From Ectothiorhodospiraceae bacterium (GTDB lineage Bacteria > Pseudomonadota > Gammaproteobacteria > XJ16 > Halofilaceae), in the NCBI GenBank assembly GCA_007134775.1, contig SLKC01000162.1, positions 1 to 50,699 on the forward strand: a stretch of DNA of 50,699 nucleotides, read 5' to 3'. The notes beneath the pieces were generated by a model that worked only from the letters and a program-made list of their open reading frames with translations, was not told the origin of the DNA and ran no database searches. A program made the translations under genes and the position numbers. This document shows positions 7,448 to 46,618 of the stretch, piece after piece; positions within the stretch are counted from its first letter, which is position 1, and each line of letters starts with the position of its first letter.

Positions 7448-7475
7448 GGAGTACGCTCGCAACGCGGGCCTGCTG

Positions 7476-7601
7476 GTGAGTCGATGGATCTGGAATCGGG
7501 ATGCCGACCTACTGCGCCTGGCGGTCGGTGGGGGGATGATCGCTTTCTCGTTGTGGGTCAACGCATGCTGCTCGCGCCGGGCGGTGCTGCGTATGGCGTG
7601 A
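7476..7601 (+). other. Possible small membrane ORF or frameshifted tail of the response regulator
   Basis: After the response-regulator stop, a different frame stays open to a stop at 7601. It reads like real protein: IDPVAIEEYARNAGLLVSRW followed by a hydrophobic stretch near LRLAVGGGMIAFSLWV. A GTG at 7476 could start a protein of about 41 residues, but no good ribosome site precedes it. Alternatively the frame is the true C-terminus of the preceding gene, displaced by an indel near 7380-7440. Confidence 0.25.
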
Positions 7602-7620
7602 CCTCTCGACTTGGCGAGTT

Positions 7621-7646
7621 GTTCCCGGGCGCTGCGGCCCGGGAAC
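7621..7646. terminator. Bidirectional hairpin terminator
   Basis: GTTCCCGGGC and GCCCGGGAAC form a perfect 10-bp stem around GCTGCG. It sits between the plus-strand response-regulator gene and the convergent minus-strand gene ending at 7667, and so could stop both transcripts. The T-rich stretch after it (GATCGTTTCC) is weak. Confidence 0.5.
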
Positions 7647-7666
7647 GATCGTTTCCTTGCAGGCCT

Positions 7667-8122
7667 TCAGGTCGCGTCCGTGCGCACCTGTCCGACCGAT
7701 GTCTCATCGGCGTCGGGATCTCCCCTCTCCCATTCGGCGAGGATATCTCCACAGTGGGAGGAGATGCGGCGATTCGGCCGCGTCTCGCCCGGCATCAGTG
7801 CCCAGTCGCCGCTCTCGACGTACTGTGTACGCTGAAACCGCGAGCGCATGCCCTGCAGCTCACTCAGCCGTTCAATGGCATCCGCGTCCGCGAGAAAGCG
7901 CTGCGCGCACCAGTCTCCTGCAAGCTCCATGGTCGCTTGGCGCACTTCGGCGCGGGCTATCTGGCTTGCCTTCGACGATGAAACCCAGGCACCCGAGCTG
8001 AATCCGAGGTACATGGTGGCGGCGACTGCGCCGGCCATCAGGAAGAAGGTTCCCTTCTTCGAAGGGCGGTACTCCCGCCACCGATTCATCATGCTCTGCC
8101 TGGCATTTCCCGTTTCTTTCAT
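7667..8122 (-). CDS. Hypothetical single-span membrane protein
   Basis: A product of about 151 residues that I do not recognise by function. A basic N-terminus (NRWREYRPSKKG) precedes one hydrophobic segment at about residues 25-47 (FFLMAGAVAATMYLGF), followed by a soluble, probably periplasmic region containing two Cys (in DWCAQRF and SSHCGDIL) that might pair. The ATG at 8122 is chosen because AAAGGGGA lies 8 bases upstream; the in-frame ATG at 8128 sits almost on top of that site. It is monocistronic, convergent with the response regulator and divergent from the DUF2845 gene. Confidence 0.6.
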   Translation of the reverse strand: MKETGNARQSMMNRWREYRPSKKGTFFLMAGAVAATMYLGFSSGAWVSSSKASQIARAEVRQATMELAGDWCAQRFLADADAIERLSELQGMRSRFQRTQYVESGDWALMPGETRPNRRISSHCGDILAEWERGDPDADETSVGQVRTDAT

Positions 8123-8360
8123 TCTCATTCCCCTTTGATTGATCCAGTTGCCACGTCACGTGGCGGCGAGGCAGCGGGCGTCCCTTCTCAGTGGCGGTCG
8201 TTCGTCTTGGTCCGATCGCCGGCTACTGCGCTGCCTACAAATCCTTAGACCCGGGGGGCACGGCGAGTTCAACGGGCTGTGACACTTTGTTGGGTGCTCC
8301 GGGCACCGCCCGGGCCGGTATGCTATTCTCGATCGATCGGCGTGAGCGTGTGGAGCGTCT

Positions 8361-8642
8361 ATGCCCCGGATCCTGTTGCCGACCGTGCTACTGATTGCCC
8401 TGATCAGCGCTCCTGCGGTGCAGGCGGACGGTTTGCGCTGTGGCAACGAACTGGTCCAGCGTGGCGACAGCATCGTCAGTGTCGAGAAGGCGTGCGGCGA
8501 GCCGATGCGCAAAAGCAACCTCGTGAACGACTACGGCAAGGTCATCGGGACCGTGCTCTATTTCGAGGGCGGCTACGGACGCTCCGATCGGCGCGTGGTC
8601 TTCCGCGGCGGCCGCGTCGTCGATATCGAGCGTCTGCGCTAG
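8361..8642 (+). CDS. DUF2845 family secreted protein
   Basis: A 93-residue protein with a Sec signal peptide (MPRILLPTVLLIALISAPAV, likely cleaved after VQA at about 22). The mature part fits DUF2845: LRCGNELVQRGDS, VEKACGEP and then a short beta-rich end (VLYFEGGYG, VVFRGGRVVDIE). The two Cys could form a disulfide in the periplasm. Function is unknown for the family. A TATGCT hexamer at 8319-8324 is a possible -10. The stop lies 19 bases from the convergent tdh stop. Confidence 0.75.
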   Translation: MPRILLPTVLLIALISAPAVQADGLRCGNELVQRGDSIVSVEKACGEPMRKSNLVNDYGKVIGTVLYFEGGYGRSDRRVVFRGGRVVDIERLR

Positions 8643-8661
8643 CGCTACGCGTCGGCCCAGG

Positions 8662-9705
8662 TCAGGGGGCGGGCCAGTCGAGGATGACCTTGCCGCAGTT
8701 GCCGGCGCGCATCGCCTCGAAGCCCTGCTCGAAGTCCTCAATGTTCAGGCGATGAGTGATGACCCCGGCGACGTCGAGGCCGCCCTGGACCAGGGCGATC
8801 ATCTTGTACCAGGTCTCGAACATCTCCCGACCGTAGATCCCTTTCAGGGTCAGCATCTTGAAGATGACCTGATTCCAGTCGATCTCGAAGGCGGTTGGCG
8901 CGATGCCGAGGATGGCGATCTGCCCGCCATTGTTCATGACATCGATCATCTGCCGGAATGCCGGGGCCGCGCCCGACATCTCCAGACCCATGTCGAAGCC
9001 CTCGGTCATGCCGATCTCCTGCATGACCTCGTGCAGATCCTGCTCGCCCGTGTTCACGACATGCACCAGCCCCATGCGGCGCGCGAGCGCGAGGCGCTCC
9101 GGGTTGATGTCGGTAACGACGACGTTGCGCGCACCGATCCGCTGCGCTACGAGCGCACCCATGATGCCGATCGGTCCGGCGCCGGTGACGAGCACGTCTT
9201 CGGCTGTCAGGTTGAATGTGAGAGCCGTGTGCACGGCGTTGCCGAGGGGATCGAAGATCGCGGCGATGTCGTCGGGGATGTCCGCGGGGATCGGGATGAC
9301 GTTCATCTCGGGGATGCAGACATACTCGGCGAAGCTGCCGGGGCGATGGACGCCGACGCCGCGCGTGTTGTGGCAGAGTTGCCCGCGGCCGGCACGGCAG
9401 TTGCGGCAGGTACCGCAGACGATGTGGCCCTCGCCGCAGACGCGTTGCCCCGGCTCGTAACGGGTGGCGGCGGTGCCACTGGCGACGACCTCGCCGACGA
9501 ACTCGTGGCCGACAACCATAGGTACGGGGACGGTGCCGGCCGACCACTGGTCCCAGAGGTAGATGTGCAGGTCGGTGCCGCATATGGCCGATTTGCGTAC
9601 GCGGATGAGGACGTCGTTCGGGCCCGGCTCGGGCACGGGGACCTCCTGGAGCCAGAGGCCGGGTTCGCGGTGCGCCTTGACCAGCGCTCGCATTGTTGTC
9701 GACAT
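8662..9705 (-). CDS. tdh: L-threonine 3-dehydrogenase
   Basis: A zinc- and NAD+-dependent medium-chain dehydrogenase of 347 residues that oxidises threonine to 2-amino-3-ketobutyrate, which Kbl then splits to glycine and acetyl-CoA. Catalytic-zinc residues are seen in ICGTDLHIY and GHEFVGE. The structural-zinc cysteine set is in [15 protein letters not shown] with a fourth Cys in QLCHN. The NAD fold begins at GAGPIGIMG. The ATG at 9705 has GGAGG 7 bases upstream. It lies 14 bases after the kbl stop, giving the classical kbl-tdh operon. Confidence 0.95.
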
Positions 9706-9719
9706 GCGTGTCCTCCAGC

Positions 9720-10910
9720 TCAGTCGATGACGCCCAACTCGCGGCCGACCTCGGCGAAGGCCGTCAGTGCCCGCTCGATGTCGTCCGGTTCGTGCGCCGC
9801 CGACATCTGGGTGCGGATGCGTGCCTGGCCGCGCGGGACCACCGGGTAGGAAAAGCCGATGACGTAGACGCCGTGCTCGAGCAGGCGCTCCGCCATGCGG
9901 TGGGCGAGGGCGGCGTCGCCGAGTACGACCGGGATGATCGGGTGATTGGCGCCGGTCAGCGTGAAGCCGAGTTCGACGAGTCCCTCGCGGAAGCGTCGCG
10001 TGTTGTTGAACAGCCGTTCGCGCAGCGGGTCACCGCCTTCGATCAGCTCGAAGGCGGTCAGTGAAGCGCCGGCGATGACCGGTGCCAGGGTGTTGGAGAA
10101 CAGATAGGGCCGCGAGCGCTGGCGCAGCCACTCGACGATCGGCCCGCGGGCGGCGGTGTAGCCGCCCGCGGCTCCGCCCAGCGCCTTGCCCAGCGTGCCG
10201 GTGAGGATGTCCACCCGTTCGGCTACGCCGCAATACTCGGGGGACCCCCGGCCATGGGCACCGAGGAAGCCGGTCGCATGGCAGTCGTCGACCATCACCA
10301 GGGCATCGTAGCGGTCGGCCAGCTCGCAGATATCGGCGAGGCGGGCAATGATGCCGTCCATGGAGAAGACACCGTCGGTCGCGATGAGCCGGAAGCGGGC
10401 GTCCCGGGCTTCCTGGAGCTGCTTCTCCAGGTCTGCCATGTCGTTGTTCGCGTAGCGGAATCGCCGCGCCTTGCACAGCCGGATCCCGTCGATGATCGAG
10501 GCGTGGTTGAGCGCATCCGAAATGACCGCGTCCTCGGGGCCCAGCAGGGTCTCGAACAGGCCGGTGTTGGCGTCGAAGCAGCTCGGATAGAGGATGCTGT
10601 CCTCGGTACCGAGGAAATCGGCGATCTTCGCCTCCAGTGCCTTGTGCACGGTCTGCGTCCCGCAGATGAAGCGCACTGAGGCCATGCCGAAGCCGTAACG
10701 CTCGAGCGCCTGCTGCCCCGCTTCGATCAGCGCCGGGTGGTCGGCGAGCCCGAGATAGTTGTTGGCACATAGGTTGAGCACGCGCGCACCACTGGCGACC
10801 TCGATCGATCCGGCCTGTTTCGAGGAGATGACCCGTTCCGGCTTGTACAGGCCGTCGTTATGCAGCTGCTCGATCTCGGTGTTGATGTGCGCCAGAAAAC
10901 GTTTGGACAT
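9720..10910 (-). CDS. kbl: Glycine C-acetyltransferase (2-amino-3-ketobutyrate CoA ligase)
   Basis: A PLP-dependent alpha-oxoamine synthase of 396 residues, essentially the length of the E. coli enzyme. It cleaves 2-amino-3-ketobutyrate with CoA to glycine and acetyl-CoA. CANNYLGL is near residue 48, DDCHATGF near 208 has the Asp that contacts the PLP pyridine nitrogen, and the PLP Lys is about K242 in [10 protein letters not shown]. The C-terminal [10 protein letters not shown] matches the family. The ATG at 10910 (MSKRF) has GGAG just upstream. It is first in the kbl-tdh operon. Glycine from sarcosine oxidase in this window could meet this pathway. Confidence 0.95.
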
Positions 10911-11200
10911 GGGGCTCCGGGGGTGCGTAGTGCTGACAGTGGCCTCCGATTGTCCGACGGGGATCGATCCCGCGGCAAGAGTGCGTGATGTCCGCGCATC
11001 ACCGCGGAGCGCCAACCGCCCGCGACGCCGGTGGGCATGATACGCTCGGTCGTGTTGATGACGACCACCGGAACAACGACGAGGCGGGTGCCTGTTGCGC
11101 GGCAGTCTCTATCGGCACAGCTGCCGGCGGTGTCGGCGCGCTTCGGCGCCGGGAGCCCCCGGGCGCCTCACGAGCCTGATTGACAACGAGGGAGGGTCCG
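10911..11200. other. Divergent intergenic region kbl / peroxiredoxin-like gene
   Basis: Nearly 290 bases without a gene-like frame. It must hold the promoters for kbl (minus) and the peroxiredoxin-like gene (plus). I see only small hairpins (for example GCGC TTCG GCGC near 11137) and no riboswitch core. A TTGACA at 11180-11185 is too close to the start codon to serve as a -35. Confidence 0.4.
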
Positions 11201-11746
11201 ATGGCCGAACACTTGCCGCGTCCTGCCGAACCGCTGTTACTGACCGATGTCCATGGTAACCGTGTCCCGATCGGGCGCGATGCAGGGCGTCCGGTCGTGC
11301 TCAGTTTCTTTCGCGAGGCCTCCTGCCCCTATTGCAACTTCCGGATCTACGAACTCACCAACAACGTACCCCAGCTTGGCAAAGGGCGTGTCGAACTCGT
11401 CGCCGTACTCGCTTCGACCGAGGATGAGGTCCGGCGCTTTCTACTCCAACGCGAACGTCCGATCACATTCGTCGCCGATCCGGACCTCGATGCCTTCGAA
11501 ACCTACGGCGTGGCGCGCGAAGGCGCACTGTCCAAGCTCAAGGCGTTGCTGCGGCGGTTGCCCGCGCTGTTGCGTGGCTACCGACTCCGCGAGGGGGAGG
11601 GCCCGAAGGCCCGCGACTCGCGAATCATCCCGGCGGACTTCCTCATCGATGCCGATGGCCGTGTCGTCGACGAGTACTATGGCGAGGATATCGGCGATCA
11701 CATCGCGATCGAGCGCATCCAGCAGTTTGTTCACCGTGCCGTGTGA
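11201..11746 (+). CDS. Peroxiredoxin-like (AhpC/TSA, thioredoxin-fold) protein
   Basis: A cytoplasmic thioredoxin-fold protein of about 181 residues. After a short lead, VVLSFFREASCPYCNF provides a redox CxxC pair (C42 and C45) where peroxiredoxins have their peroxidatic Cys. Later VLASTEDEV, FVADPDLDAFETYGV and PADFLIDADGRVVDEYYG match AhpC/TSA-like proteins. The family reduces peroxides or thiols; the substrate here is unknown. The insert LKALLRRLPALLRGYRLREG is basic and unusual for a small peroxiredoxin. The ATG at 11201 has GGGAGGG directly upstream. It stands alone, 92 bases before the TRAP lipoprotein gene. Confidence 0.78.
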   Translation: MAEHLPRPAEPLLLTDVHGNRVPIGRDAGRPVVLSFFREASCPYCNFRIYELTNNVPQLGKGRVELVAVLASTEDEVRRFLLQRERPITFVADPDLDAFETYGVAREGALSKLKALLRRLPALLRGYRLREGEGPKARDSRIIPADFLIDADGRVVDEYYGEDIGDHIAIERIQQFVHRAV

Positions 11747-14139: not shown

Positions 14140-14200
14140 TTGCTGACAAGTACCATGGCACTTCGCCCCCATGCGAGGGGCTGTCATCGGGAGTGTGAAC

Positions 14201-15070
14201 ATGGATCCGACTGACCGCCGCCAGGCGGTGGCGACATTCCGCCAGCGCCTGTTCGAGCTGATGGAGCGCGAAGGCCTGTCACGCTCCGGCCTGTCGGTCC
14301 GTGTGGGCATGGACCGCTCGACCATCACGCAACTGCTGTCGCAGGAGAATCAGCGCCTGCCCCGGGCCGAGACCGTGATCGCGATCGCGAGCGCGTTCGG
14401 TGTCAGTACCGATTGGCTCCTGGCCGTGAGCCAGGATGGCGGCGGCCAGCGCACCGAACTGGTCGGGCTTGCAGGGGCGCCGCTGGAGATCGAGGCCAGG
14501 GCGGCCTCACCACTCGATGAGCGCCTGATGCGCTGGCACCGGGAGGCGAGCGGCTACAAGATCCGCTATGTGCCGACCACACTCCCCGACCTGCTCAAGA
14601 CCGAGGCCGTGATTCGTTATGAGTGTCCGGACCTGAACACGGCGGCGCCGGAGACCAGTCTCGAGCAGAGCGCGTTCCGCCTCGATTACAGTCGTCATCC
14701 GGACACCGAGATGGAGGTGTGCTGCGCGCGTGAGACCCTTGCAGCCTTCGCCGGGGGTGAGGGGATCTGGGCCGATCTGCCCGCGCACGATCGCCGCACA
14801 CAGATCGAGCGCATGATCGAACTCGTCGATGAACTCTATCCGACCTTTCGCTGGTTCCTCTACGATGGCTTGCGCCACTACTCCGCGCCGGTCACCCTGT
14901 TCGGGGCGCAGCGGGCGGCGCTTTACGTCGGCGACCTCTACTTCGTCGTGAATACCACCGAACACATCCGCGCCCTGACCGCACACTTCGACGGTTTGGT
15001 GAAGGCCGCCACCGTGCAATCCACCGAGATGGGTGAGCACCTGCGCGCGCTGTATCGGCGACTGGAGTGA
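14201..15070 (+). CDS. XRE-family transcriptional regulator 1 with C-terminal sensor-like domain
   Basis: A 289-residue regulator. Residues about 5-70 form an XRE helix-turn-helix (GLSRSGLSVRVGMDRSTITQ, then the typical FGVSTDWLL end). Residues about 105-285 form a domain I do not recognise, also present in regulator 2 at 31870: both contain HREA-GYKIR-VPT, PD-LKTE-V, a YP--R--L-D segment, YSAP---FG and HFD-LV--A. The layout recalls actinobacterial XRE proteins with a C-terminal DUF5753-like part, a weak analogy. The ATG at 14201 has GGGAG 8 bases upstream. hutG starts 5 bases after the stop, so the regulator is probably cotranscribed with it. It is divergent from the desaturase. Confidence 0.85.
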   Translation: MDPTDRRQAVATFRQRLFELMEREGLSRSGLSVRVGMDRSTITQLLSQENQRLPRAETVIAIASAFGVSTDWLLAVSQDGGGQRTELVGLAGAPLEIEARAASPLDERLMRWHREASGYKIRYVPTTLPDLLKTEAVIRYECPDLNTAAPETSLEQSAFRLDYSRHPDTEMEVCCARETLAAFAGGEGIWADLPAHDRRTQIERMIELVDELYPTFRWFLYDGLRHYSAPVTLFGAQRAALYVGDLYFVVNTTEHIRALTAHFDGLVKAATVQSTEMGEHLRALYRRLE

Positions 15071-15075
15071 ACCAC

Positions 15076-15867
15076 ATGGCTGATTTACCGACCGAGCCCT
15101 ATGTCTTCGAGCCCGGCGAATCGCCCCTGCTGGTCAGCATCCCCCATGCCGGTACGGCGCTGACGCCCGAGGTCGAGGCGGGCTTGAGCGCGACCGGGGC
15201 CACGCTCGGCGACACGGACTGGCATGTGCCGCGCCTCTACGGCTTTTTGCGCGAGCACGCGGTGAGCGTGATCCGTGGCTGCTATTCGCGCTATGTGGTC
15301 GATCTCAACCGGCCGCCTGACGACACCCCGCTCTACAGCGGCGCGACCACGGGATTATTCCCGACGATCAACTTCGATGGCGAGCCCCTCTTCCGGGCCG
15401 GGTGTGAACCGACGGCGGCCGATCGCCAGCGCTACCTGGAGCAGATCTGGCGACCCTACCATGAACGCCTGGCGAGCGCGTTGCAGGCGCTGCGTGCGAC
15501 CCACGGCCACGCCGTCCTCCTCGACGCCCATTCGATCCGCTCGCAGGTGCCGCGCCTGTTCGAGGGCACGCTGCCCGATCTCAATCTCGGGACGGTCGAT
15601 GGGACGAGCGGTTCCCCGGCGCTGGAGAAGCAGCTCGCGGCATTGTGCAGCGGTTCCGGCTTCACCACGGTCACGAATGGTCGCTTCAAGGGTGGGTACA
15701 TCACCCGCGCATACGGCGATCCGGCGGCGGGCATCCACGCCATCCAGCTCGAACTCGCGCAGCGCAACTACATGGACGAGGAACCGCCGTTCCCGTATCG
15801 CGAACAGCGCGCCATCGACCTGCAGGCGTTCCTGCGCCGCTTTGTCGCGGCGCTGCTGGATTGGTAG
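15076..15867 (+). CDS. hutG: N-formylglutamate deformylase
   Basis: A zinc hydrolase of 263 residues that converts N-formylglutamate to glutamate and formate, the last step of the five-step histidine pathway. Family motifs are SIPHAG (metal His), VDLNRPPD, LLDAHSIRS and LPDLNLGTVDG. The ATG at 15076 is preferred (GGAG 8 bases upstream, within the end of the regulator gene); a GTG at 15067 overlaps the regulator stop and is possible. It is convergent with hutF, whose product supplies its substrate; the two stops are about 40 bases apart. Confidence 0.92.
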   Translation: MADLPTEPYVFEPGESPLLVSIPHAGTALTPEVEAGLSATGATLGDTDWHVPRLYGFLREHAVSVIRGCYSRYVVDLNRPPDDTPLYSGATTGLFPTINFDGEPLFRAGCEPTAADRQRYLEQIWRPYHERLASALQALRATHGHAVLLDAHSIRSQVPRLFEGTLPDLNLGTVDGTSGSPALEKQLAALCSGSGFTTVTNGRFKGGYITRAYGDPAAGIHAIQLELAQRNYMDEEPPFPYREQRAIDLQAFLRRFVAALLDW

Positions 15868-15908: not shown

Positions 15909-17282
15909 CTACTCGCGGTAGAGCACGTCACGGCAGACCGGGTGGAAGGCCTCGGCCGCCTCGGCTGCCTGCGGATGGTGGCCGTCATCGACCACGGTGG
16001 CGCCTGCCACGCGTACTTGGCGGATGGCGCGTTCCCCCGCAGCGAAAAGCCAGCGATTGAGGCGGTGGGCAGGCGGACACGCGGCGAGCAGGGGGTCGTC
16101 GGGGTCAAGGACGAGCAGATCGGCGCGCCGACCCGCCTCGATGCGTCCGACGGGCTGCCCAGTGGCGCGGGCGCCGGCCTCGGCCGCGCTCATGTAGAGC
16201 TGTTCGCCCACGATGGCCTGGTCGGGGCGAGTCATCCGGTTGCGTCGGCCTGAGACGAGGCGCTGACCATACTCGAGCCAGCGCAGCTCCTCGCTGACGC
16301 TGAGTGAGACGTGGCTGTCCGAACCGATCGCCAGCGGCACCGCCCGCCCCGCCATCTCCTCGGCGCGCGCGATGCCATCCCCGAGATTCGCCTCCGTGGT
16401 CGGACAGAGCCCGATCACCGGGCCGCGTTCGGCGAGTCCCGCGAGTTCGTGGTCGTCGAGATGTGTGGCGTGGATCAGGCACCAGCGCCCGTCCACGGGC
16501 AGGTTGTCGAGCAGCCACGCGACCGGGCGCTGTCCCGACCACTCGAGGCAGGCGTCGACCTCGGGCTGCTGCTCGGCGACATGGATATGCACGGGCAGAT
16601 CCCCGGGCAGGGCGGCGAGCACCCGGGTGATGTCGGCCGCCGTGGTGGCGCGCAGGGAGTGGAAGGCGATCCCCATCGTTGCCCGCGGCCGCGATCGAGT
16701 GGCTTCTTCGAGGGCTGCGTGGAGCGCGAGATAGGCGTCGACATCGTGGATGAAACGGCGCTGGCCCGGCGTCGGCGGCTGTGCCCCGAACCCGGAATGG
16801 CGGTAGAGCACGGGCAGCATGCTCACGCCGATGCCGCTGGCATCGGCCGCGCGCAGCGCCCGCAGGCCGAGCTCCGCCGCTTGCGGGTAGGGCTGGCCGT
16901 CCGGCTGGTGGTGGACGTAGTGGAACTCGCCGACGCTGGTGTAGCCGGCGCGCAGCATTTCGATGTAGACGTGGCGGCAGACCGCTTCGAAGGCGTCGGC
17001 GTCCAGGGCCAGGGCCGCCCGGTACATCGCCTCGCGCCAGCTCCAGAAGCTGTCCGTGGGGTCTTCGGCGATGTCGGTGTAACCGGCGATCAGGCGCTGG
17101 AAGGCGTGCGAGTGGACGTTGACCATACCGGGCAACGCCGGGCCGGGCAGGCGCTCGTCCGCGGCCTCGGCGGCCACGTCGGTCTCGATCCGCTCGATGT
17201 GGCCGTTGGCGTCCAGATGGAGGCGCACGTCGCGGGCCCAGCCATCGGGGAGTAGCGCATCGCTGCAGTGGAGTCGGGTCAC
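15909..17282 (-). CDS. hutF: Formimidoylglutamate deiminase
   Basis: An amidohydrolase-superfamily enzyme of about 457 residues that deiminates N-formimino-L-glutamate to N-formylglutamate and ammonia. The zinc motif NVHSHAFQR is near residue 55; other features are GEFHYVHH, HIHVAEQ, LIHATHLDD, LCPTTEANLGDG and the catalytic Asp region IGSDSHVSLS. The N-terminus CSDALLPDGWARDV matches HutF. The GTG at 17282 is the only in-frame start that gives family length. It has no Shine-Dalgarno (CCCCCC precedes it), so initiation may be leaderless or otherwise unusual. It is divergent from the ammonia-lyase homologue and separate from hutUIH, which lies 16 kb away. Confidence 0.9.
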   Translation of the reverse strand: MTRLHCSDALLPDGWARDVRLHLDANGHIERIETDVAAEAADERLPGPALPGMVNVHSHAFQRLIAGYTDIAEDPTDSFWSWREAMYRAALALDADAFEAVCRHVYIEMLRAGYTSVGEFHYVHHQPDGQPYPQAAELGLRALRAADASGIGVSMLPVLYRHSGFGAQPPTPGQRRFIHDVDAYLALHAALEEATRSRPRATMGIAFHSLRATTAADITRVLAALPGDLPVHIHVAEQQPEVDACLEWSGQRPVAWLLDNLPVDGRWCLIHATHLDDHELAGLAERGPVIGLCPTTEANLGDGIARAEEMAGRAVPLAIGSDSHVSLSVSEELRWLEYGQRLVSGRRNRMTRPDQAIVGEQLYMSAAEAGARATGQPVGRIEAGRRADLLVLDPDDPLLAACPPAHRLNRWLFAAGERAIRQVRVAGATVVDDGHHPQAAEAAEAFHPVCRDVLYRE

Positions 17283-17347
17283 GGGGGGTCGCTTGGTGTC
17301 GGATGTGGGCGATATGTAATCATTGCACGTTGCGGTCGACAAGCGGA

Positions 17348-17421: not shown

Positions 17422-18864
17422 ATGAGCGTAACGATTGACGGCCGCCGGGATATCGGTCTGGCCGCCGTTGAGCGCGTGGCTTGGCACGGTGAGGGCGTGG
17501 CTCTGGCCCAGGCCGCCGTCGAGCGCATGCAGGCGAGCCGCGAGGGCTTCCTGCGTTTACTGGAGCACCCGGATGTCGTGATCTACGGCGTGACGTCGGG
17601 CTACGGGCAGATGGCCCATGTCCGGCTGGATGCGGACGAGCGCCTGCGCCATGCACGCCGTCCGCCGCACGCCAACCAGGTGACGTTCGGTGAGGCCTTT
17701 CCCGAGCGCGTCACGCGCGCGATTGTCCTGGCACGGTTGGCGAACTACGTCGATGGCCATGCGGCGATCACGCCGGCACTGGCCGTTGACGTCGCCGCCA
17801 TGCTCAATGGCGACGTCCTGCCCCGTGTGCCGCTGGAAGGCCACGGCGGTGCCGGCGAAATCCTGATCCTGGGTGAGCTCTTCGGCCCGCTCGCCCAACG
17901 CGCGGAGCCGCGGGAAAAGGACGTCCTGGCACTGATCAACGGCAGCCCCGGCGCGGCAGCGCTGGTGGCCGATGCCGCACTCGTTGGTCGACGTCGCCTG
18001 GCGCTGATCGAGGAGGTGTTCGCGCTCGCCTACGAGGCCTTCCAGGCACCGCTCGAACACATCGATCCGGTGCTCGCCGAGCTGTGGAACGACGCCGATG
18101 AGGCCGATGCGGTCAATGCGCTGGCGCGCCTGCTCGCCGGTGCCGATGGCACGCGCCGGCCCTATCAGGCGCCGGTGAGTTTCCGCATCCTGCCGCGTCT
18201 GCTCGGCCGCTTGCGGCGCGCCGTCCGGCAGGCGGAGGCGGCGGCCGAACGCTCGCTGCAGTCAGTCACCGACAACCCGATGTACATCCCGCCGAGCCGC
18301 GAACACCCCGATGGCCGGGTGCTGTCCAACGGCGGCTTCCACAACACGCTTGCGTCGCCAGCCCTCGACGAGCTGGCGGCGATCTACGCCGACCTATGCA
18401 CGCTCGCGGATCGGCAGACGGCGAAGCTGTTGAACGGTGCGGTGTCGCGGCTGCCGGATCAGCTGCGCGCTGACGGGGACGATCCGCGCTACATGGGCTG
18501 CCTGCCCATGGTGCAGGTGGGTCTGGGCGAGGCCGCACGGCGCGCCGCGCAACGTACCTTCCTCCCGGGCAGCGAGAGCGGCGGTTTCGGCCAGAACGAT
18601 GTCGCCACCAATGCCGTCACCGCTTGGCGGGCGCAGGCGGAGGCCGGGCGCTTGCTCGAGGGAACGCTGGCGCCGCTCGCCCTGGTCGCGAGCCAGGCGC
18701 TGCACGTCACTGGGCGCGATGCGCCGTCGGCCCTGAAGGAGCGGCTGGCGGGCGTGCGCTCGGCCGCCCCCGTGCTCGACCCCGACATGCGCCCCCTCGG
18801 GCCCGATGCAGGTCAGCTCGCCGAGCGGTTCCGTACCGAGATCCTCGATGGGAGTCCGTCATGA
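17422..18864 (+). CDS. Aromatic amino acid ammonia-lyase homologue lacking the MIO serine
   Basis: A 480-residue member of the HAL/PAL/TAL superfamily. Normal members deaminate His, Phe or Tyr using a cofactor (MIO) made from an internal Ala-Ser-Gly. Here the aligned segment reads VLPRVPLEGHGGAGEIL against [17 protein letters not shown] in hutH of this window, so Ala-Ser-Gly is Ala-Gly-Glu (A144-G145-E146) and MIO cannot form by the known route. Other sites are partly kept: the catalytic-loop Tyr (VIYGVTSGYG, Y55), Asn of LINGS and TDNP are present. QDPYSLR has become QAPVSFR, losing a second active-site Tyr. The frame is intact, so it is a maintained gene rather than debris. It overlaps the next gene by 4 bases (ATGA). 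Its reaction is unknown. Confidence 0.82.
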   Translation: MSVTIDGRRDIGLAAVERVAWHGEGVALAQAAVERMQASREGFLRLLEHPDVVIYGVTSGYGQMAHVRLDADERLRHARRPPHANQVTFGEAFPERVTRAIVLARLANYVDGHAAITPALAVDVAAMLNGDVLPRVPLEGHGGAGEILILGELFGPLAQRAEPREKDVLALINGSPGAAALVADAALVGRRRLALIEEVFALAYEAFQAPLEHIDPVLAELWNDADEADAVNALARLLAGADGTRRPYQAPVSFRILPRLLGRLRRAVRQAEAAAERSLQSVTDNPMYIPPSREHPDGRVLSNGGFHNTLASPALDELAAIYADLCTLADRQTAKLLNGAVSRLPDQLRADGDDPRYMGCLPMVQVGLGEAARRAAQRTFLPGSESGGFGQNDVATNAVTAWRAQAEAGRLLEGTLAPLALVASQALHVTGRDAPSALKERLAGVRSAAPVLDPDMRPLGPDAGQLAERFRTEILDGSPS

Positions 18865-19874
18865 CCGAATCCGCCACTGAGCCCACACTGCTGCTGACGG
18901 CGCGCGATGTCGCCGAGATCGCGCTGACCGATGCGGAAGTCATTGCCGCGGTAGAGCGCTCGCTCGCCGCGCAGGGACGCGGCCAGACCGTGATCGAGCC
19001 GCGCGTCCACCTTGTGCCCGAGTCCTCGGACAAGGGCCACTTCAATGTCCTGCGCGGCTATGTGGCCCCGCTCGCCTCCGCCGGTGTCAAGGTCGTCGGC
19101 GACTTCTATCGCAACTACGAGCGCGGCCTGCCCTCGGAGCTGGCCGTGCTCAATCTCTTCGATCCAGAGACGGGCGCGTTGCGCGCGATGGTCGAGGCGA
19201 CGGGCATCACGAGCATGCGCACGGGGGCGTTGACCGCCATTGGTGCGAAGCATCTTGCACGCCCGGACAGCCGGGTGCTCGGCCACATCGGTACGCGGGG
19301 GACGGCCTACTGGAACGTGCGCCTGCTCGACGGCCTGTTCGACTTCGACGAGATCCGGGTCCACTCCCGCCGCCCTGAGAGTCGCCAGGCCTTTGCCGAT
19401 CAGTTGACGACCGATCTGGGCAAACGGGTCACGGTGGTCGAGGACTGGGCATCCTGTGTCCAGGGCGCGGACATCGTCGTCGAGGCCTCGCGCCTACCCA
19501 GTCCGCAGCCACTGCTGAAGACCGAATGGATCAAGCCGGGCGCGCTGGTGGTCCCCTACGGCACGATGAGCGCGGTCGAGCTGTCGCTGACCGACATCAT
19601 GAGCAAGGTCGTGGTCGACGATTGGGGGCAGTGCAAGCCGGGGCGCCCGTACGGTGCGCTGCGCGAGCATGTCGACAGTGGCCGCGTGACCTGGGAGTCA
19701 CTGCACGCCGAGCTGGGGCAGATTGTCGCCGGTCTGCGACCGGGACGCGAAACCGCCGAGGAGAAGATTCTGTTCTGGCACCGGGGGCTCAGTACCAGCG
19801 ATGTCGCCCTCGGCCATGCGCTGCTCGAGGCGGCGAAGAGCCGCGGTCTGGGGCAGTGGCTGGCGTTTCATTGA
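18861..19874 (+). CDS. Ornithine cyclodeaminase/mu-crystallin family protein
   Basis: A 337-residue NAD(P)-dependent protein of the OCD/mu-crystallin family, which includes ornithine cyclodeaminase, alanine dehydrogenase, ketimine reductases and the EutC protein of ectoine catabolism. Visible features are the N-terminal LLLTARDVAEIALTDAEVI, VKVVGDF, the conserved TSMRTGALTAIGAKHLAR segment contacting substrate carboxylate and cofactor, a Rossmann turn (GHIGTRGTAYWNV) and a C-terminal LSTSDVALGHALLE. The Lys of typical OCD catalysis was not located with confidence. Translationally coupled to the MIO-less lyase homologue, it probably acts in the same pathway. It is convergent with the ABC transporter operon. 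Confidence 0.82.
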   Translation: MTESATEPTLLLTARDVAEIALTDAEVIAAVERSLAAQGRGQTVIEPRVHLVPESSDKGHFNVLRGYVAPLASAGVKVVGDFYRNYERGLPSELAVLNLFDPETGALRAMVEATGITSMRTGALTAIGAKHLARPDSRVLGHIGTRGTAYWNVRLLDGLFDFDEIRVHSRRPESRQAFADQLTTDLGKRVTVVEDWASCVQGADIVVEASRLPSPQPLLKTEWIKPGALVVPYGTMSAVELSLTDIMSKVVVDDWGQCKPGRPYGALREHVDSGRVTWESLHAELGQIVAGLRPGRETAEEKILFWHRGLSTSDVALGHALLEAAKSRGLGQWLAFH

Positions 19875-20050: not shown

Positions 20051-22141
20051 TTAGCCCACCGATTCGCTCGCCGGTTCGTGGTACTCGAACACGGGCTTGG
20101 CGCGCTTGAGCTCCTCGATCGGGATGTGGCACGTGATCGTGTGTCCGGGACTGACCTCGCGCTCCGGCGGGGGCTCATTGTCACAGATCTCGCCAATCCG
20201 GTGCGGGCAGCGTGTCGAGAAGGGGCAGCCCTTCGGCGGCGCCATGACACTCGGGAGGTTGCCCTCGAGCAGGATCTCGCGCTTCTGGATGTTCGGATCG
20301 GCGATCGGGACGGCCGATAGCAGGGCCTCCGTATAGGGATTGTAGGGCGGCGAGAAGACCTCGTCGGTGGTCCCGCGCTCCATGATCCAGCCCAGATACA
20401 TGACGACCACGCTGTCGGAGAGGTAGCGCACCGTCGATAGGTCGTGGCTGATGAACAGCAGCGTGGTGTGGTGTTCTCGCTGGATGTCCATCAGCAACTC
20501 GGTGACCGCCGCGGCGACCGAGACATCGAGGGCGGATACAGGCTCGTCGGCGACGACCATGGCCGGATTGCCGGCGAAGGCGCGGGCGATACCGACGCGC
20601 TGTTTCTGGCCACCGGAGAGCTGGCGCGGGCGCCGGTAGTAGAAGTCGCGCGGCAGCTTCACGATGTCGAGTAGCTCGAATACCTTGTCGCGGATGCGGT
20701 CCTGGCTGCGCGCATTGGTGAAGCGCTGGATGACGCGACCGATCTGCGGGCCCACGCGGTGGCTGGGGTTGAGCGTGTCGAACGGATTCTGGAACACCAT
20801 CTGTAGCGCAGAGATGCGATCCGGGGGGCGCTTGCGCACAGGCTGATAGGCGATTTCCGTGTCTTCGAGCTTGATCGAGCCGCCCGTGGCGGTCTCCAGT
20901 CCCATCAGGACCTTAGCGAAGGTTGATTTGCCGCAGCCGGATTCGCCCACGATCGCCACGGTCTCCGCCCGGCGGGCGTTGAAGGTGAGCGACTCGTTGG
21001 CCTTGACGTGGCGTACGCGCTCGCCGCGCAGGATCGCCGGTATCGAATTGTTGTACACCGGGTAATACTTCTGCATCCGATCGATCTTGAGGACCACTTC
21101 ACCGAGCGTGAGGGGGTCCTTTTGTTCGGGCTTTGATTCGGCCTGATCGTGCTTGATCTCCTCGATGCGGACGCAGCGTGCGTAATGCCCGCGCTGTTCG
21201 TCGACCCGCCTGTGCGGGATCGTGTCCTGGTCGCAGCGCCCGGCCTTGAAGAAGTCGCAGCGGGGACCGAAATTGCAGCCCGGCGGGCGTTCATGCGGTA
21301 GCGGTAGCTGCCCGCGGATCGGCTTCAGCGGCGTCGCGTTCTTGTCCATGCTCGGCGATGCGATGCAGCCGAACAGGCCGTGCGTATACGGGTGCCGCGG
21401 GTTGCGGAAAAGCTGGTCGATCGAGCCTTCCTCAACCACTTCGCCCGAGTACATGACGAAGACCCGGTCGCAGGTCTCGCGGATCAGCCCCAGATTGTGC
21501 GAAATGTAGATCTGGGCCGTACCGAAGCGGCGGCTGATGTCGCCGATCAGTTTGATGATCCCAGCCTCGACGGTCACATCGAGCGCCGTGGTCGGCTCGT
21601 CGAGCACCAGCAGCGAGGCGTTCGCGAGTAGGCCCATGGCGATGACCACGCGCTGCTGCTGGCCGCCCGAAAGCTGATGCGGGAATGCCTCCATCACCCG
21701 TTCGGGATCGGGGAGCTGGACATCGCGCAGGATCTGCAGGGCGCGGTCGCGCGCCTCGCTCTCCGAGGCGCCCTCGTGCGTTAACGGGATCTCCATGAGC
21801 TGCTGGCGGATCTTCAAGCTCGGATTGAGCGAGGCGAACGGCTCCTGGTAGATCATGGCGATCTCGGAGCCGCGCGTCTTGCGCAGCTCTTCTTGCGACA
21901 TCTCCGCCATGTCGCGGCCCTTGTACAGCACCTGACCACCGACGATGGCGCCATTGGTACCCATGTGCTGCATGATCGCCATCGCAACGGTGGATTTGCC
22001 GCAGCCGGATTCGCCGACGATACCGATGGTCTCCCCGGCGTGGACCTCGACACTGAAGTCGATCACAGCGGGGATCTCGCCGGCACGCGTGTAGTACGAG
22101 ATCGACAGGTTGCGTGCTTCGAGTACGGGTGGCTCTGCCAT
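20051..22141 (-). CDS. Peptide/nickel-type ABC transporter, fused double ATPase (DppD-DppF-like)
   Basis: A 696-residue protein with two complete oligopeptide-type ATP-binding domains in one chain. Each has Walker A GESGCGKST (about residues 43-51 and again near 395), LSGGQ (QLSGGQQQR, QLSGGQKQR), Walker B (VLDEPTTALD, VADEPVSALD) and a switch His (YISHNLG, FISHDLS). Each ends with the oligopeptide-ATPase extension containing clustered Cys (CNFGPRCDFFKAGRC and CPFSTRCPHRIGEIC), which in related transporters can hold an Fe-S cluster or bind near the permease. It powers the two permeases encoded just upstream. The DppD and DppF equivalents are usually separate genes. Confidence 0.92.
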   Translation of the reverse strand: MAEPPVLEARNLSISYYTRAGEIPAVIDFSVEVHAGETIGIVGESGCGKSTVAMAIMQHMGTNGAIVGGQVLYKGRDMAEMSQEELRKTRGSEIAMIYQEPFASLNPSLKIRQQLMEIPLTHEGASESEARDRALQILRDVQLPDPERVMEAFPHQLSGGQQQRVVIAMGLLANASLLVLDEPTTALDVTVEAGIIKLIGDISRRFGTAQIYISHNLGLIRETCDRVFVMYSGEVVEEGSIDQLFRNPRHPYTHGLFGCIASPSMDKNATPLKPIRGQLPLPHERPPGCNFGPRCDFFKAGRCDQDTIPHRRVDEQRGHYARCVRIEEIKHDQAESKPEQKDPLTLGEVVLKIDRMQKYYPVYNNSIPAILRGERVRHVKANESLTFNARRAETVAIVGESGCGKSTFAKVLMGLETATGGSIKLEDTEIAYQPVRKRPPDRISALQMVFQNPFDTLNPSHRVGPQIGRVIQRFTNARSQDRIRDKVFELLDIVKLPRDFYYRRPRQLSGGQKQRVGIARAFAGNPAMVVADEPVSALDVSVAAAVTELLMDIQREHHTTLLFISHDLSTVRYLSDSVVVMYLGWIMERGTTDEVFSPPYNPYTEALLSAVPIADPNIQKREILLEGNLPSVMAPPKGCPFSTRCPHRIGEICDNEPPPEREVSPGHTITCHIPIEELKRAKPVFEYHEPASESVG

Positions 22142-22157
22142 GGTTGTTACTCCCGGC

Positions 22158-23045
22158 TCAGTCGCGCAGCGAGATCTCGCGCAGACCGTCGGCCATCATG
22201 TTGAATCCGAGAATGAGGCTGGAAAGGGCAGCCGCAGGTGCCAGCATCACGTGGCCCGCGTGCGCTCCCAGCTCGACGGCTTCGTTGATCATCATGCCCC
22301 AGTCGGGCTCCGGTGGCGGCAGCCCGAGGCCGAGGAAGCTCAGGGTCGCGATCGCGACCACGGTATAACCGAAGCGCAGACAGACATCGACGATCAGCGG
22401 TCCGCGGGCATTGGGCAGCAGCTCGACGAACATGATGTAGAGCGAGGACTCCCCTCGTGTCTGCGCCGCCGCGACGTAGTCCCGCGTTCGCAGATCCATG
22501 ATGAGTCCGCGCACGATTCGCATCACGATCGGCGCCGTGGTGAAGGTCACAGCGATGACGATGTTGACGCCGGAAGCGCCGAGGAACGCGATGATCAGCA
22601 CGTAGAGGACCAACACGGGGAACGAGAGCAGGATGTTCGCGAAGAACGAGACGACGTCGTCGACCAGGCCGCCGAGATAACCCGCGAGCACGCCCATGGT
22701 GATGCCCACGGCGTAGGCGCAGAGGATCGCGAGCATAGCCCAGACCATGACGCGCTGTGAGCCCCAGATCACGCGGGAGAGGACGTCTCGTCCCCGGTTG
22801 TCGGTGCCCAGCCAGTGGGTGCCGCCGTCGAAGGCCTCGCCGCCCGGTGGCACGAGGCGTACCGAGGCATCCAGTGGGTCGTAAAGAGGTAGCAGGGGGG
22901 CGAGGATCGCCATCAACACCCAGAACAGGACGATGGCCGCTCCGATCATGCCGAACCACGATTCGCGGAGCAGGGCGATCGAGCGGAGGAAACCCATGAT
23001 GCGGGAGGGCCGGGCGCTGGCGGTTGCTGTTGGATTATCGCTCAT
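22158..23045 (-). CDS. Peptide-type ABC transporter permease (DppC/OppC-like)
   Basis: A 295-residue inner-membrane permease. The N-terminal membrane segment (GAAIVLFWVLMAILAPLL) and a periplasmic loop with HWLGTDNRGRDVLSRVIWGSQ are typical of the DppC side. The remaining spans contain an EAA-type coupling loop (AAAQTRGESSLYIMFVELLPN). The stop lies 16 bases before the fused ATPase start, and its own start is 4 bases after the DppB-like stop. Substrate class follows the whole operon: short peptides, opines or other amino-acid derivatives. Confidence 0.9.
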   Translation of the reverse strand: MSDNPTATASARPSRIMGFLRSIALLRESWFGMIGAAIVLFWVLMAILAPLLPLYDPLDASVRLVPPGGEAFDGGTHWLGTDNRGRDVLSRVIWGSQRVMVWAMLAILCAYAVGITMGVLAGYLGGLVDDVVSFFANILLSFPVLVLYVLIIAFLGASGVNIVIAVTFTTAPIVMRIVRGLIMDLRTRDYVAAAQTRGESSLYIMFVELLPNARGPLIVDVCLRFGYTVVAIATLSFLGLGLPPPEPDWGMMINEAVELGAHAGHVMLAPAAALSSLILGFNMMADGLREISLRD

Positions 23046-23049
23046 GGCA

Positions 23050-23982
23050 TCAACTCACGCGGATCCGGGGGTTCAGGAACATGTAACCAATATCGGACAG
23101 GAAGTACGACAGCACCGCCACGAAGACCGCGACCAGCGTGCATGCCTGGATTACGAAGATGTCGCCGAACAGAGCGGCGTCGAGCAGCAGTGTGCCGAAG
23201 CCGCGGTAGGCGAAGAAGACTTCGACGACGATGACCCCCGAGAGCAGGTAGTTGAGCTGCAGCATGATCACGGTGAACGGTGCGATGAGCGCATTGCGCA
23301 ACGCGTGTTTGAGGATCACCTTGCGATACGGTAGTCCTTTGAGAATCGCAGTGCGTATGTATTGCGAGTTCATGACCTCGGCCATCGATGCGCGTGTCAT
23401 GCGGACGACGTAACCGCCGCCGTAGAGCAGGAGTACGAGCACAGGCAGGATGATCTGCCGCGTATCCCAGCCGTCGTACATACCCGAGGTGCCCGGTAGC
23501 CAGCCGAGCCAGAACACGAATATCGCCGTCAGGAACGTGGCCGAGGCGAACTCCGGAACCGAGGTCGTGCCAACGGCGCCGATCGATATGACGCGATCAC
23601 GCAGCGAGCCCTCCTTGATGCCGGAGAGCACGCCGAACAGCAGCGCCAAAGGGATCATCAGTGCGAACAGCCAGAAGCCCAGGATGGCCGTCATTCGCAG
23701 TCGGTCCCACAGGACTTCGTTGACGGGAACGCGCAACTGATGGGAGTAACCGAAGTCGCCTTGCAGGACACCCCACACCCATTCGAAGTAGCGCCCCACG
23801 GCGGGCTCCATGTATCCCTGCTGTTCGAGCCAGAGTTGGCGCTGCTCTTCGGTCGTATAGGGGCCTAGGACCTGACCTGCCACATTCATCTTGTTGAATT
23901 CGAAGATGGTGAACAGGATGATCGTCACCACGATCATGATGAGCAGCATCTGGCCAAGTCGTCGGGCAATGAAAATCAACAT
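23050..23982 (-). CDS. Peptide-type ABC transporter permease (DppB/OppB-like)
   Basis: A 310-residue permease beginning MLIFIARRLGQMLLIMIVVT, the standard DppB first span. A long periplasmic insert (about residues 30-90) is followed by GDFGYSHQLRVPVNEVL and the coupling motif region VVRMTRASMAEVMNSQYIRTA. A hairpin at 24074-24105 separates it from the binding-protein gene upstream, and it is nearly contiguous with the DppC-like gene. Confidence 0.9.
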   Translation of the reverse strand: MLIFIARRLGQMLLIMIVVTIILFTIFEFNKMNVAGQVLGPYTTEEQRQLWLEQQGYMEPAVGRYFEWVWGVLQGDFGYSHQLRVPVNEVLWDRLRMTAILGFWLFALMIPLALLFGVLSGIKEGSLRDRVISIGAVGTTSVPEFASATFLTAIFVFWLGWLPGTSGMYDGWDTRQIILPVLVLLLYGGGYVVRMTRASMAEVMNSQYIRTAILKGLPYRKVILKHALRNALIAPFTVIMLQLNYLLSGVIVVEVFFAYRGFGTLLLDAALFGDIFVIQACTLVAVFVAVLSYFLSDIGYMFLNPRIRVS

Positions 23983-24073
23983 GGCGCGGCAAACCCCCGC
24001 TGGTTCTGGTGCCGGGTCGGGGCCGGCATGCCATTAGTTATCGTATTGGCGGCGCACCGGATACCCGGAAACT

Positions 24074-24105
24074 ACTGGGGCCCGCCGTTGCCGGCGGGCC
24101 CCAGT
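24074..24105 (-). terminator. Strong intercistronic hairpin between binding-protein and permease genes
   Basis: CTGGGGCCCGCC and GGCGGGCCCCAG form a perfect 12-bp stem (13 with the outer A-T) around six bases, 14 bases after the binding-protein stop. Hairpins here commonly cause partial termination or protect upstream mRNA, giving more binding protein than membrane components. On the minus strand the bases after it (TAGTTTCC) contain only a short T run. Confidence 0.7.
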
Positions 24106-24118
24106 GACCGATGCGACT

Positions 24119-25810
24119 TCAGTCGTCGATCCACACCTTGTGGAAGATGTGATAGAGCGTCGGCTGCCCCGGGAAGTTCTTGACGTAATCCTTCGCCGCC
24201 GTGAAGCGCGGTGCCCAGACCGGTTGGCAGATTACGGCGTCTTCCTGCAGGATCTCCATCGCTTGCCGGAGGACTTCGCTGCGCTCGTCGGCATCGAGGA
24301 TGGACTCGGCCTGGTCCATGATTTCGTCGAACTCCGGATTGGCGTAGTTGGTCTCGTTCCAGGCGGCCCCGCTGCGGTAGGCCAGACTCAGGACCATGGT
24401 ACCGAGCGGGCGGTGGACCCACTGCGTCGCGCCGAGCGGGGTCTCGGTCCAGATCTCCCAGTACCGCGATGACGGCATCATGTTGATACGTAGATCGACG
24501 TTGATGGCACGCAGGTGCTGTGCCCAGAGTTCGGCCATCTGCTGGTCGGTGGGGCCACCGACATTGCCGACGTCGATGCTGATCTCCAGTCCGTCGCCGT
24601 AACCCGCCTCCTCGAGAAGTGCACGCGCCCCCTCGATATCCTGCTCCATCTCGGGGAGCTGGTAGTAGTCGGGGTGGATCGGATGGACGTGGTGATGCTC
24701 GCCATGCTCACCCTCGTCGTTGAACATCAGCCGGTTGTAGGCCGGGATGTCGATCGCCTTGAGCAGCGCTTGGCGCACGCGCTTGTCGTCGAAGGGTGGT
24801 TCATTGACATGCATGCGCATCACTGTGCACGTCGCCGAATCGACAGTGACGATATGGGCGTCGTCCATGTCCTCTGCCATGCGCAGGTTGTCGATGTCGA
24901 ACTCGTAGACCGCATCCGCCTGGCCACCCTGCAGTGCGGCGACATGAGATGACCCGTCTTCGCCGACGTCGATATAGACGATCTCGTCGAGGTAGATCGG
25001 CCCGCCGATGTAGGGGTCATCGAGGTCCTCGCCCCAATAGGGCCGATCGGCGCGCTGCAGCACGGCACGGCTGCCGACCCGGTGCTCGGCGAGCGTGTAC
25101 GGCCCGGTGCCGTTCGGGTTCGCGGAGAGGTCGCCATCGAAGTCGCGATGCACGATCGCCGTGGGATAGTTGAACAGGTTCTCCGGGATCGCGAGCTGGC
25201 CCGTACGCATGCGCAGCTTGACCGTGTAATCATCGACCTTCTCGACCGCACCATCAATCATGCGGCGTTCGCCGTTGACCTCCTCGGTCATGGCGGAAAA
25301 CAGGCTCATGTTCGGCGAGCCGGTGGCGGGATCGAGCCAGCGCTCGAAGTTGAACACCACATCGTCGGCGATGAAATCGTCGCCGTTGTGCCACTTGATG
25401 CCCTGGCGGAGGTGGAAGGTCCACTCCCGCAGGTCCTCGGAGGCTTCCCACTCCCGCGCCAGGTAGGGGCGCGTGACGTTGTCGGCCCCGGTGCAGGTGA
25501 GATACTCGACGATATGTCGGGAAAGGTTGGAGCGCTCGACCCAGTCGAAGGTGGCCGGGTCCTGCATCTCCTGGACCTGCATCGCGACGCGCAGGCGCCC
25601 GCCCATTTTACCGTTGTCGCCCGCGTGTGCCGGCGCGACCAGTGGGTTCCCCGTGATCTTGCCGATTAAGCTATAGGACGCTGCGGCGGACATGCCCAGC
25701 AGGGTGCTGGTGCGGAGGAAGTCTCTGCGACTCATCTTGCCTTGCCGCAGGTCTTCGGCAAGCTTGGGAATGGCCGGGTGTTTGGGCCGTTTCAATTCAT
25801 CTTCGTTCAT
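24119..25810 (-). CDS. Peptide-type ABC transporter substrate-binding protein with Tat signal
   Basis: A 563-residue family-5 extracellular solute-binding protein (DppA/OppA type). The N-terminus carries a twin-arginine motif (SRRDFLR) and a hydrophobic stretch (LLGMSAAASYSLIG) after a longer than usual n-region, so export folded by Tat is likely. The mature part has the family pattern REWTFHLRQGIKWHNGDDF, NGTGPYTL, and KRVRQALLKAIDI. It is first in a four-gene minus-strand operon (binding protein, B, C, fused ATPase). The ligand is unknown. The MIO-less lyase/OCD pair converges on this operon, suggesting but not proving a shared substrate. Confidence 0.9.
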   Translation of the reverse strand: MNEDELKRPKHPAIPKLAEDLRQGKMSRRDFLRTSTLLGMSAAASYSLIGKITGNPLVAPAHAGDNGKMGGRLRVAMQVQEMQDPATFDWVERSNLSRHIVEYLTCTGADNVTRPYLAREWEASEDLREWTFHLRQGIKWHNGDDFIADDVVFNFERWLDPATGSPNMSLFSAMTEEVNGERRMIDGAVEKVDDYTVKLRMRTGQLAIPENLFNYPTAIVHRDFDGDLSANPNGTGPYTLAEHRVGSRAVLQRADRPYWGEDLDDPYIGGPIYLDEIVYIDVGEDGSSHVAALQGGQADAVYEFDIDNLRMAEDMDDAHIVTVDSATCTVMRMHVNEPPFDDKRVRQALLKAIDIPAYNRLMFNDEGEHGEHHHVHPIHPDYYQLPEMEQDIEGARALLEEAGYGDGLEISIDVGNVGGPTDQQMAELWAQHLRAINVDLRINMMPSSRYWEIWTETPLGATQWVHRPLGTMVLSLAYRSGAAWNETNYANPEFDEIMDQAESILDADERSEVLRQAMEILQEDAVICQPVWAPRFTAAKDYVKNFPGQPTLYHIFHKVWIDD

Positions 25811-30815: not shown

Positions 30816-30909
30816 TATGGTCCTCCTGTATTTGTGGTTCTTGCCGAACGGACGCGACCCATCAAGTCGGCGGCACGTGTGGCAAGGGGCCGGGTCGCCT
30901 GCCGGCGCA

Positions 30910-33591: not shown

Positions 33592-33663
33592 CACAAAGGG
33601 GGTGGCCTTGCGCAACCGCGGGCGATTTGATTGAGTGATCGGCCCCTTGACCGGAGACCGTTG

Positions 33664-42585: not shown

Positions 42586-42692
42586 AGAGGATTCCACTGT
42601 TTGCCGTTGCTGCACGTACGCGGCATCGGAACCGGCACGTGCGGGATGGTCAGCGAAGCGAGCCTGCGATCGAGCAACCCGAAGGCCGCCGC

Positions 42693-46269: not shown

Positions 46270-46543
46270 GGTCCACCTCCGTTATGCGGTCGCGCGCCAG
46301 GTGTGTGGCCCCGATCTCGTGAGTGCGGGTGTTGCGCTCGACCACAAGCCACGCCCGGCAGCCGCCGGTATGTTGCCAGTACTCCTGCATCCAGCCGGCG
46401 GGATTGGTGCGCACGAAGACGTATTGGTACCACGCCTCCATCGAGCGCTCACTCAGCGCGGGGCGCTCGACGGTGGCATCACCGCCGTAGGTGAATTCGT
46501 GGTGATCCCGTAGCCCGCAGAAGGGGCAGTTGATGCGTAGCAT
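46262..46543 (-). CDS. soxD: Sarcosine oxidase delta subunit
   Basis: A 93-residue zinc-binding subunit. CPFCG at residues 6-10, then H and a later Cys (GGCRAWL), provide the zinc site; MEAWYQYVFVRTNPAGWMQEYWQH is a SoxD signature region. GGAG lies about 10 bases upstream of the ATG. It is separated from soxB by a hairpin-containing gap of 75 bases and coupled to soxA. Confidence 0.95.
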   Translation of the reverse strand: MLRINCPFCGLRDHHEFTYGGDATVERPALSERSMEAWYQYVFVRTNPAGWMQEYWQHTGGCRAWLVVERNTRTHEIGATHLARDRITEVDRG

Positions 46544-46607: not shown

Positions 46608-46618
46608 GTCTCGCACGT

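Follow-up and report, generated by a model that had tools for sequence, protein, structure and literature searches.

A conserved ammonia-lyase homologue without the MIO serine, and an overlapping OCD-family gene, in a histidine-use island

Textbook accounts treat the MIO group as the defining feature of the superfamily that includes histidine ammonia-lyase (HAL). What, then, might an intact member do that lacks the Ala-Ser-Gly motif? The question is raised by a locus in 50,699 nt of DNA from an Ectothiorhodospiraceae bacterium (GCA_007134775.1, contig SLKC01000162.1, forward strand), hereafter the window. There, an open and complete reading frame for a MIO-less PF00221 lyase of 480 residues (P0001; 17422-18864, plus strand) overlaps by four bases, ATGA, an intact frame for a 337-residue protein of the OCD/mu-crystallin family (P0002; 18861-19874, plus strand). 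A preliminary description, made from the DNA letters, took the lyase for a conserved family that uses its scaffold for a different reaction, with the OCD protein handling an imine; its account of the frames, the loop and the overlap was verified.

The gene pair and its surroundings

The lyase is a member of PF00221 (Lyase_aromatic profile, 199.8 bits against a cut-off of 27.3) and falls below the HutH equivalog TIGR01225 (152.5 bits, cut-off 539.15). P0002 matches the solved OCD/mu-crystallin family members 1omo and 1vll over residues 9-336 (E ~2e-41), which places it in that family, and it scores below every curated cut-off, its similarity to EutC being sub-threshold. The OCD frame converges, as first described, with a peptide-type ABC operon. 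This adjoining dpp-type operon for a peptide/nickel-type importer (20051-25810, minus strand) comprises a fused DppD-DppF (20051-22141), two permeases and a substrate-binding protein (24119-25810), all on the minus strand. The fusion unites the two ATPases, DppD and DppF, in one protein of 696 residues. At another locus, L084, a dpp-type ABC also sits between lyase and OCD.

As hutH, hutU, hutI, hutF and hutG are all present in the window, the pair belongs to a histidine-use island. Divergent from the lyase is hutF (formimidoylglutamate deiminase; 15909-17324, minus strand; TIGR02022, 599.9 bits, over the cut-off). An XRE-type regulator (14171-15070, plus strand) overlaps hutG (N-formylglutamate deformylase; 15067-15867, plus strand; TIGR02017, over the cut-off). 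The remainder lies beyond the importer on the plus strand: a PhnD-like (Phosphonate-bd) protein (32800-33591), whose relatives stand beside OCD in other loci, adjoins hutU (33631-35346), the sole urocanase of the genome, followed by hutI (an amidohydrolase; 35678-36907; 59% to a hutI-like frame of L087) and hutH (36904-38436). This last is the genuine MIO-type paralogue already recognized, a canonical histidine ammonia-lyase with Ala-Ser-Gly (TIGR01225, 658.7 bits, over the cut-off).

Genes for the use of methylated amines also lie near these hut genes. On the strand opposite to the lyase, the window encodes an MTTB-family methyltransferase homologue (29253-30968) and a dimethylglycine/sarcosine dehydrogenase-like protein together with a sarcosine oxidase set (40165-47881).

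Searches at class and family level turned up the lyase in the window genome only. It is absent from both congeneric genomes, which also hold no close OCD (best match 28%) and no second PF00221 gene (one carries a single member, which scores 528.5 bits, and the other has none); with lyase and OCD missing from both, the pair is accessory in the genus.

Loop, fold and family of the lyase

The lyase loop GHGGAGEILILGELF has no Ala-Ser-Gly, unlike the loop of the window's own HutH. By alignment, the codons for Ala144-Gly145-Glu146 (17851-17859, plus strand) lie at the place of Ala-Ser-Gly(-Asp) in HAL. These letters are as first reported, where they were taken for a substitution of Ala-Ser-Gly by Ala-Gly-Glu. 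We dropped that part, as an alignment of 50 superfamily members puts the gap in the lyase (GGA-GEIL against GASGDLAP in HutH) at the MIO serine column, which is occupied solely in the canonical HutH group, and Glu146 in the column of HAL Asp145. On this alignment, loss of the serine (A-S-G-D to A-G-E) is the better reading. About 24 residues past the loop are also missing relative to HutH. The serine is deleted in all members of the window lyase family, so none has the Ala-Ser-Gly of MIO-dependent lyases and aminomutases (HAL, PAL, TAL and TAM).

A second active-site tyrosine had been said to be valine, and alignment does put Val252 (codon 18175-18177, plus strand) in place of HAL Tyr280 (QAPVS in the lyase, QDPYS in HutH). 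The position of HAL Glu414 is Asn or Asp in the window lyase family. Retained are Tyr55 (HAL Tyr53; codon 17584-17586, plus strand), Asn173 (Asn195), Gln249 (Gln277) and Arg255 (Arg283). The lyase is thus like HutH in fold, in these four residues and in its hut neighbourhood, and unlike it in the valine and in lacking Ala-Ser-Gly, hence MIO. An AlphaFold model from 28 sequences (mean pLDDT 89.5, pTM 0.91) matches HAL, tyrosine aminomutase and ergothionase about equally well, so the fold alone does not discriminate between them.

A scan of genome contigs with the single lyase sequence returned no matches. Two orthologues on Rhizobium megaplasmids, 53% identical, were included in a three-sequence alignment that served as the seed of a further contig scan. 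This yielded 55 loci, nearly all of the same MIO-less type with an invariant Gly-Glu pair; one of them, L060, is an ordinary Ala-Ser-Gly lyase. The roughly 50 orthologues, which keep the loop, come from Alphaproteobacteria, Chloroflexota (L055) and Actinomycetota (L057-L059). G145 and E146 are invariant in 28 family sequences, and dN/dS between close lyase pairs is 0.05-0.15. Judged by the invariant loop across phyla and by these ratios, the window lyase belongs to a conserved MIO-less family, as the preliminary description held, and is neither a sporadic mutant nor a decaying gene. A decaying or non-catalytic (binding or regulatory) copy would account for the lost active-site residues and for sporadic broken copies, but, against the same invariance and ratios and with Tyr55, Asn173 and Arg255 retained, we find it scarcely credible. 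The broken copies, with a frame break or in-frame stop, are at L049, L050, L056 and L064, in some Mesorhizobium and Inquilinus records, and a few such copies are expected for an accessory gene. Most of the Mesorhizobium loci have a solitary lyase.

Mycolicibacter carries two tandem lyase copies (L057, 9908-12642; L058, 8697-11359), the second of which is without Tyr53, Asn195 and the Gly-Glu loop (GPDEA). To judge by their residues, the tandem copies look as though they encoded a heteromer in which one type of subunit is inactive.

Superfamily members without MIO are already known through ergothionase, described as a PF00221 member that lacks MIO and frees trimethylamine from ergothioneine (PMC13405746, citing Maurer 2019). 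A search of the open literature for MIO-less lyases returned no relevant paper beyond ergothionase. The enzyme of Treponema denticola (PDB 6s7j/6s7q) has the PF00221 fold in common with the window lyase (TM-score ~0.85); it too is without the MIO serine (loop SSIGE-GDITTL in 6s7j), has Tyr280 replaced and retains Tyr53 and Arg283. The two differ in that they are 19% identical in the fold alignment, the window lyase lacks about 24 post-loop residues, and its loop reads A-GE-I rather than E-GD-I. A maximum-likelihood tree unites ergothionase with thirteen OCD-paired lyases and with those from urocanase/S-Me-THD/hydantoinase operons in a single group (100/100); the window lyase family forms its own 100/100 clade, whose stem measures 2.8 changes per column. 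As an AU test does not reject a topology that joins the two MIO-less groups (p = 0.33), MIO may have been lost once or twice. At two positions that the ergothionase group conserves, Lys383 and Glu411 in 6s7j numbering, the window lyase family has Met and Asn/Asp. Given the separate clade and these residues, we keep the window lyase apart from the ergothionases, whose mode of action it may nonetheless share.

The OCD clade and shared operon partners

The clade of P0002 is a discrete one: among 398 genomes of the phylum, 11 have it at 70% or above, with nothing else within a limit of 1e-75. A MIO-less PF00221 gene lies within 9 kb of the OCD gene in 14 of 17 loci (the window and L080-L095), which are loci rather than events, several being near relatives and six coming from one genus, with at least eight genera represented. 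By rough estimate, given that a genome has between one and four PF00221 genes, a lyase would be that close by chance in ~1% of loci. Among the remaining loci, L089 has canonical HutH in a hut operon, and L085 and L086 have no lyase. The OCD protein was seen paired with the window lyase family in the window only; elsewhere its partner is always ergothionase-type, with loops, each checked, that read GSIGA-AD, GSIGA-GD, GSIGA-DD, GSLGA-AD or GSVGA-AD. Recurrence of lyase and OCD together across genera, which had been proposed as a check, therefore holds for MIO-less lyases at large and fails for the window lyase family. That the gene order recurs within this family was rejected, most of its members having no adjoining OCD. 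Order also varies between loci, from lyase-OCD in the window to OCD (9023-10024) then lyase (10021-11538) at L093, with a four-base overlap in each. Judged from these neighbourhoods, the OCD-fold partner is repeatedly recruited alongside MIO-less lyases.

In the clade alignment, the OCD proteins keep the family-typical K, R and DDWGQ segments. The clade lacks the Asp of the GADGPG segment, which reads GTMSAV in P0002, and P0002 has GTRGTA for the glycine motif GCGTQA (clade pattern G-(A/T)-R-G-T-(A/S)). By sequence, P0002 has its fold family in common with archaeal alanine dehydrogenase AF1665, ornithine cyclodeaminase and EutC, and it is unlike all three in both segments; it has neither the Asp in a G(A/G)D segment nor the GxGxxA motif of an ornithine cyclodeaminase. 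With the Asp gone and the glycine motif altered, the suggestion that this protein handles an imine is not supported so far. A search of the open literature for OCD with ergothioneine returned no relevant paper.

Five OCD cassettes (L080, L081, L083, L087 and L091) include betaine-type OpuAC proteins, which are 55-68% alike. Two LLM-class flavin oxidoreductases (6609-9004) directly precede the OCD-lyase pair of L081, on a Sinorhizobium plasmid. Additionally, a PhnD-like binding-fold protein of 263-280 residues recurs in OCD-lyase cassettes (L081, 11504-12316; L084, 2734-3576) and next to hutU in the window; its role may be enzymatic or regulatory and not that of a transporter part.

The window lyase family and ergothionase-type lyases have operon partners in common in three settings. 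Hydantoinase (62-64% identical), M20 carbamoylase (50-53%) and UbiD (70%) are shared between loci of window-type lyases (L005, L018 and L034) and of ergothionase-type lyases (L073-L075 and L078). In Chloroflexota, the window-type lyase of L055 lies within a urocanase/S-Me-THD/hydantoinase/M20 set, whose urocanase and S-Me-THD are 57% and 42% identical to those of L073; this ergothionase-like operon is whole in L055, partial in L005, L018, L034 and L045, and absent from the window. The third slot is that of the OCD gene itself, as the window OCD is 69-76% identical to OCDs adjoining lyases of the ergothionase group. These three partner sets are the main argument that both lyase types do analogous work, and since the window family occupies ergothionase's operon slot elsewhere, the lyase probably splits methylated amines off histidine-like compounds.

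UbiD, often with UbiX, adjoins MIO-less lyases of both kinds (L004, L005, L018, L034, L043, L045, L047, L052 and L078), and several of these loci also have hydantoinase and carbamoylase, without urocanase. It is frequent beside Rhizobium members of the window lyase family.

Candidate reactions and their wider meaning

Among the options first offered for a different reaction on this scaffold (elimination, cyclisation or binding), non-MIO elimination is the best supported. Our best reading, held with moderate confidence, is that the lyase eliminates a methylated amine from a betaine of the histidine type without the help of MIO, hercynine being the likeliest substrate here. The lyase would be an amine-eliminating enzyme of the HAL/PAL fold that works on ergothionase's principle. 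Its leaving amine would already be quaternary (trimethylammonium), which, we propose, is why the electrophilic MIO would not be needed; the retained Tyr/Arg pocket, with the acidic Glu146, would remove the beta-proton. Hercynine (N-alpha-trimethylhistidine) would give trimethylamine and urocanate, urocanate would be taken to glutamate by hutU-hutI-hutF-hutG of the same island, and the OCD protein would be a dedicated partner of such pathways. We infer the betaine class of substrate, hercynine as the substrate and the catalytic role of Glu146.

A betaine substrate is supported by deletion of the MIO serine in both the window family and the ergothionase group, by the operon slots held in common with ergothionase-type lyases, the OCD slot included, and by the five OCD cassettes with OpuAC together with an Opu-type ABC that adjoins the lyase of L005. 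The hut operon of L087 combines OpuAC, a BCCT carrier, OCD and two MIO-less lyases with hutU, hutI and hutG; the stretch read has no Ala-Ser-Gly-type lyase, and the genome has one elsewhere. Hercynine was detected in nine of ten cyanobacterial strains (PMC3826126). A search of the open literature for hercynine with urocanate and trimethylamine returned no relevant paper.

Carriers of the QAT type are also used for plain histidine in hut operons, which weakens the argument from transporters to support rather than proof. A betaine substrate is further weakened by the window's adjoining transporter, which is of peptide/nickel type and not betaine type, by the same OCD in the hut operon of L089 with canonical HutH, and by the solitary lyases of Mesorhizobium. 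The separate long-stem clade and the unconserved Lys383 and Glu411 mean that the chemistry may differ from that of ergothionase. Finally, a route from hercynine to urocanate has no place for UbiD and leaves its association in Rhizobium unexplained.

Alternatively, the lyase could eliminate a beta-substituent or yield an enamine or imine from an amino acid derivative, leaving the OCD protein to reduce or isomerise the product, as in the EutB/EutC pair of hydroxyectoine use. The strong OCD coupling, with four-base overlaps in both gene orders and MIO-less lyases near most OCD genes, would fit, as would the sub-threshold resemblance to EutC. However, this OCD clade lacks the Asp of cyclodeaminases and alanine dehydrogenases and has an altered glycine motif, its lyase partners are closest to a trimethylamine lyase, ergothionase, and most of the window lyase's own family has no adjoining OCD; we consider this chemistry unlikely. 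Were the elimination the same and the substrate another aromatic betaine (of tryptophan, tyrosine or phenylalanine) or a partly methylated histidine, the downstream genes might be expected to vary by locus as they do (UbiD/hydantoinase; CoA-transferase/MaoC in L083; urocanase), as if there were several substrates, but the close hut linkage in the window, L087 and L089 makes this distinctly unlikely. Ergothioneine, or its S-methyl or sulfonate derivative, is suggested by the operon around the L055 lyase and is in our view very improbable: in the window genome, which is 99.6% complete, S-Me-THD, a second urocanase and a close hydantoinase are all missing (hydantoinase relatives are 26% identical only). 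With the thio-route genes absent from its genome, ergothioneine was set aside as an unlikely substrate in the window organism, and the same gene content fits best with urocanate as the product, passed on through hutU.

It is possible, though we hold this only tentatively, that the lyase represents a second family of MIO-free amine lyases, separate from ergothionase and equipped with catalytic residues of its own, which feeds hercynine into the hut pathway, and that its partner belongs to a new OCD-fold enzyme class found repeatedly beside MIO-free lyases of several lineages. If true, a separate MIO-free family acting on hercynine would define hercynine catabolism and a general betaine-lyase module.

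The lyase is a variant of a known MIO-less theme, one that is real, conserved and under-described. Common soil and marine bacteria carry several MIO-less clades, in some cases within or next to operons for histidine use, and these clades would offer a candidate route for histidine betaine breakdown and a source of environmental trimethylamine. Such genes are automatically annotated as hutH or histidine ammonia-lyase (for example, in L080, L081 and L083), and deletion of the loop serine provides a sequence rule for correcting these annotations.

A third PF00221 clade (support 100/99) has lost the whole MIO triad, with the loop GSVGY---LTHMAH (L066, 1447-2976; L067; L068; L070; L087, 14478-16112; L096, 8570-10063). 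Its members are often annotated hutH and in several cases stand beside canonical hutH.
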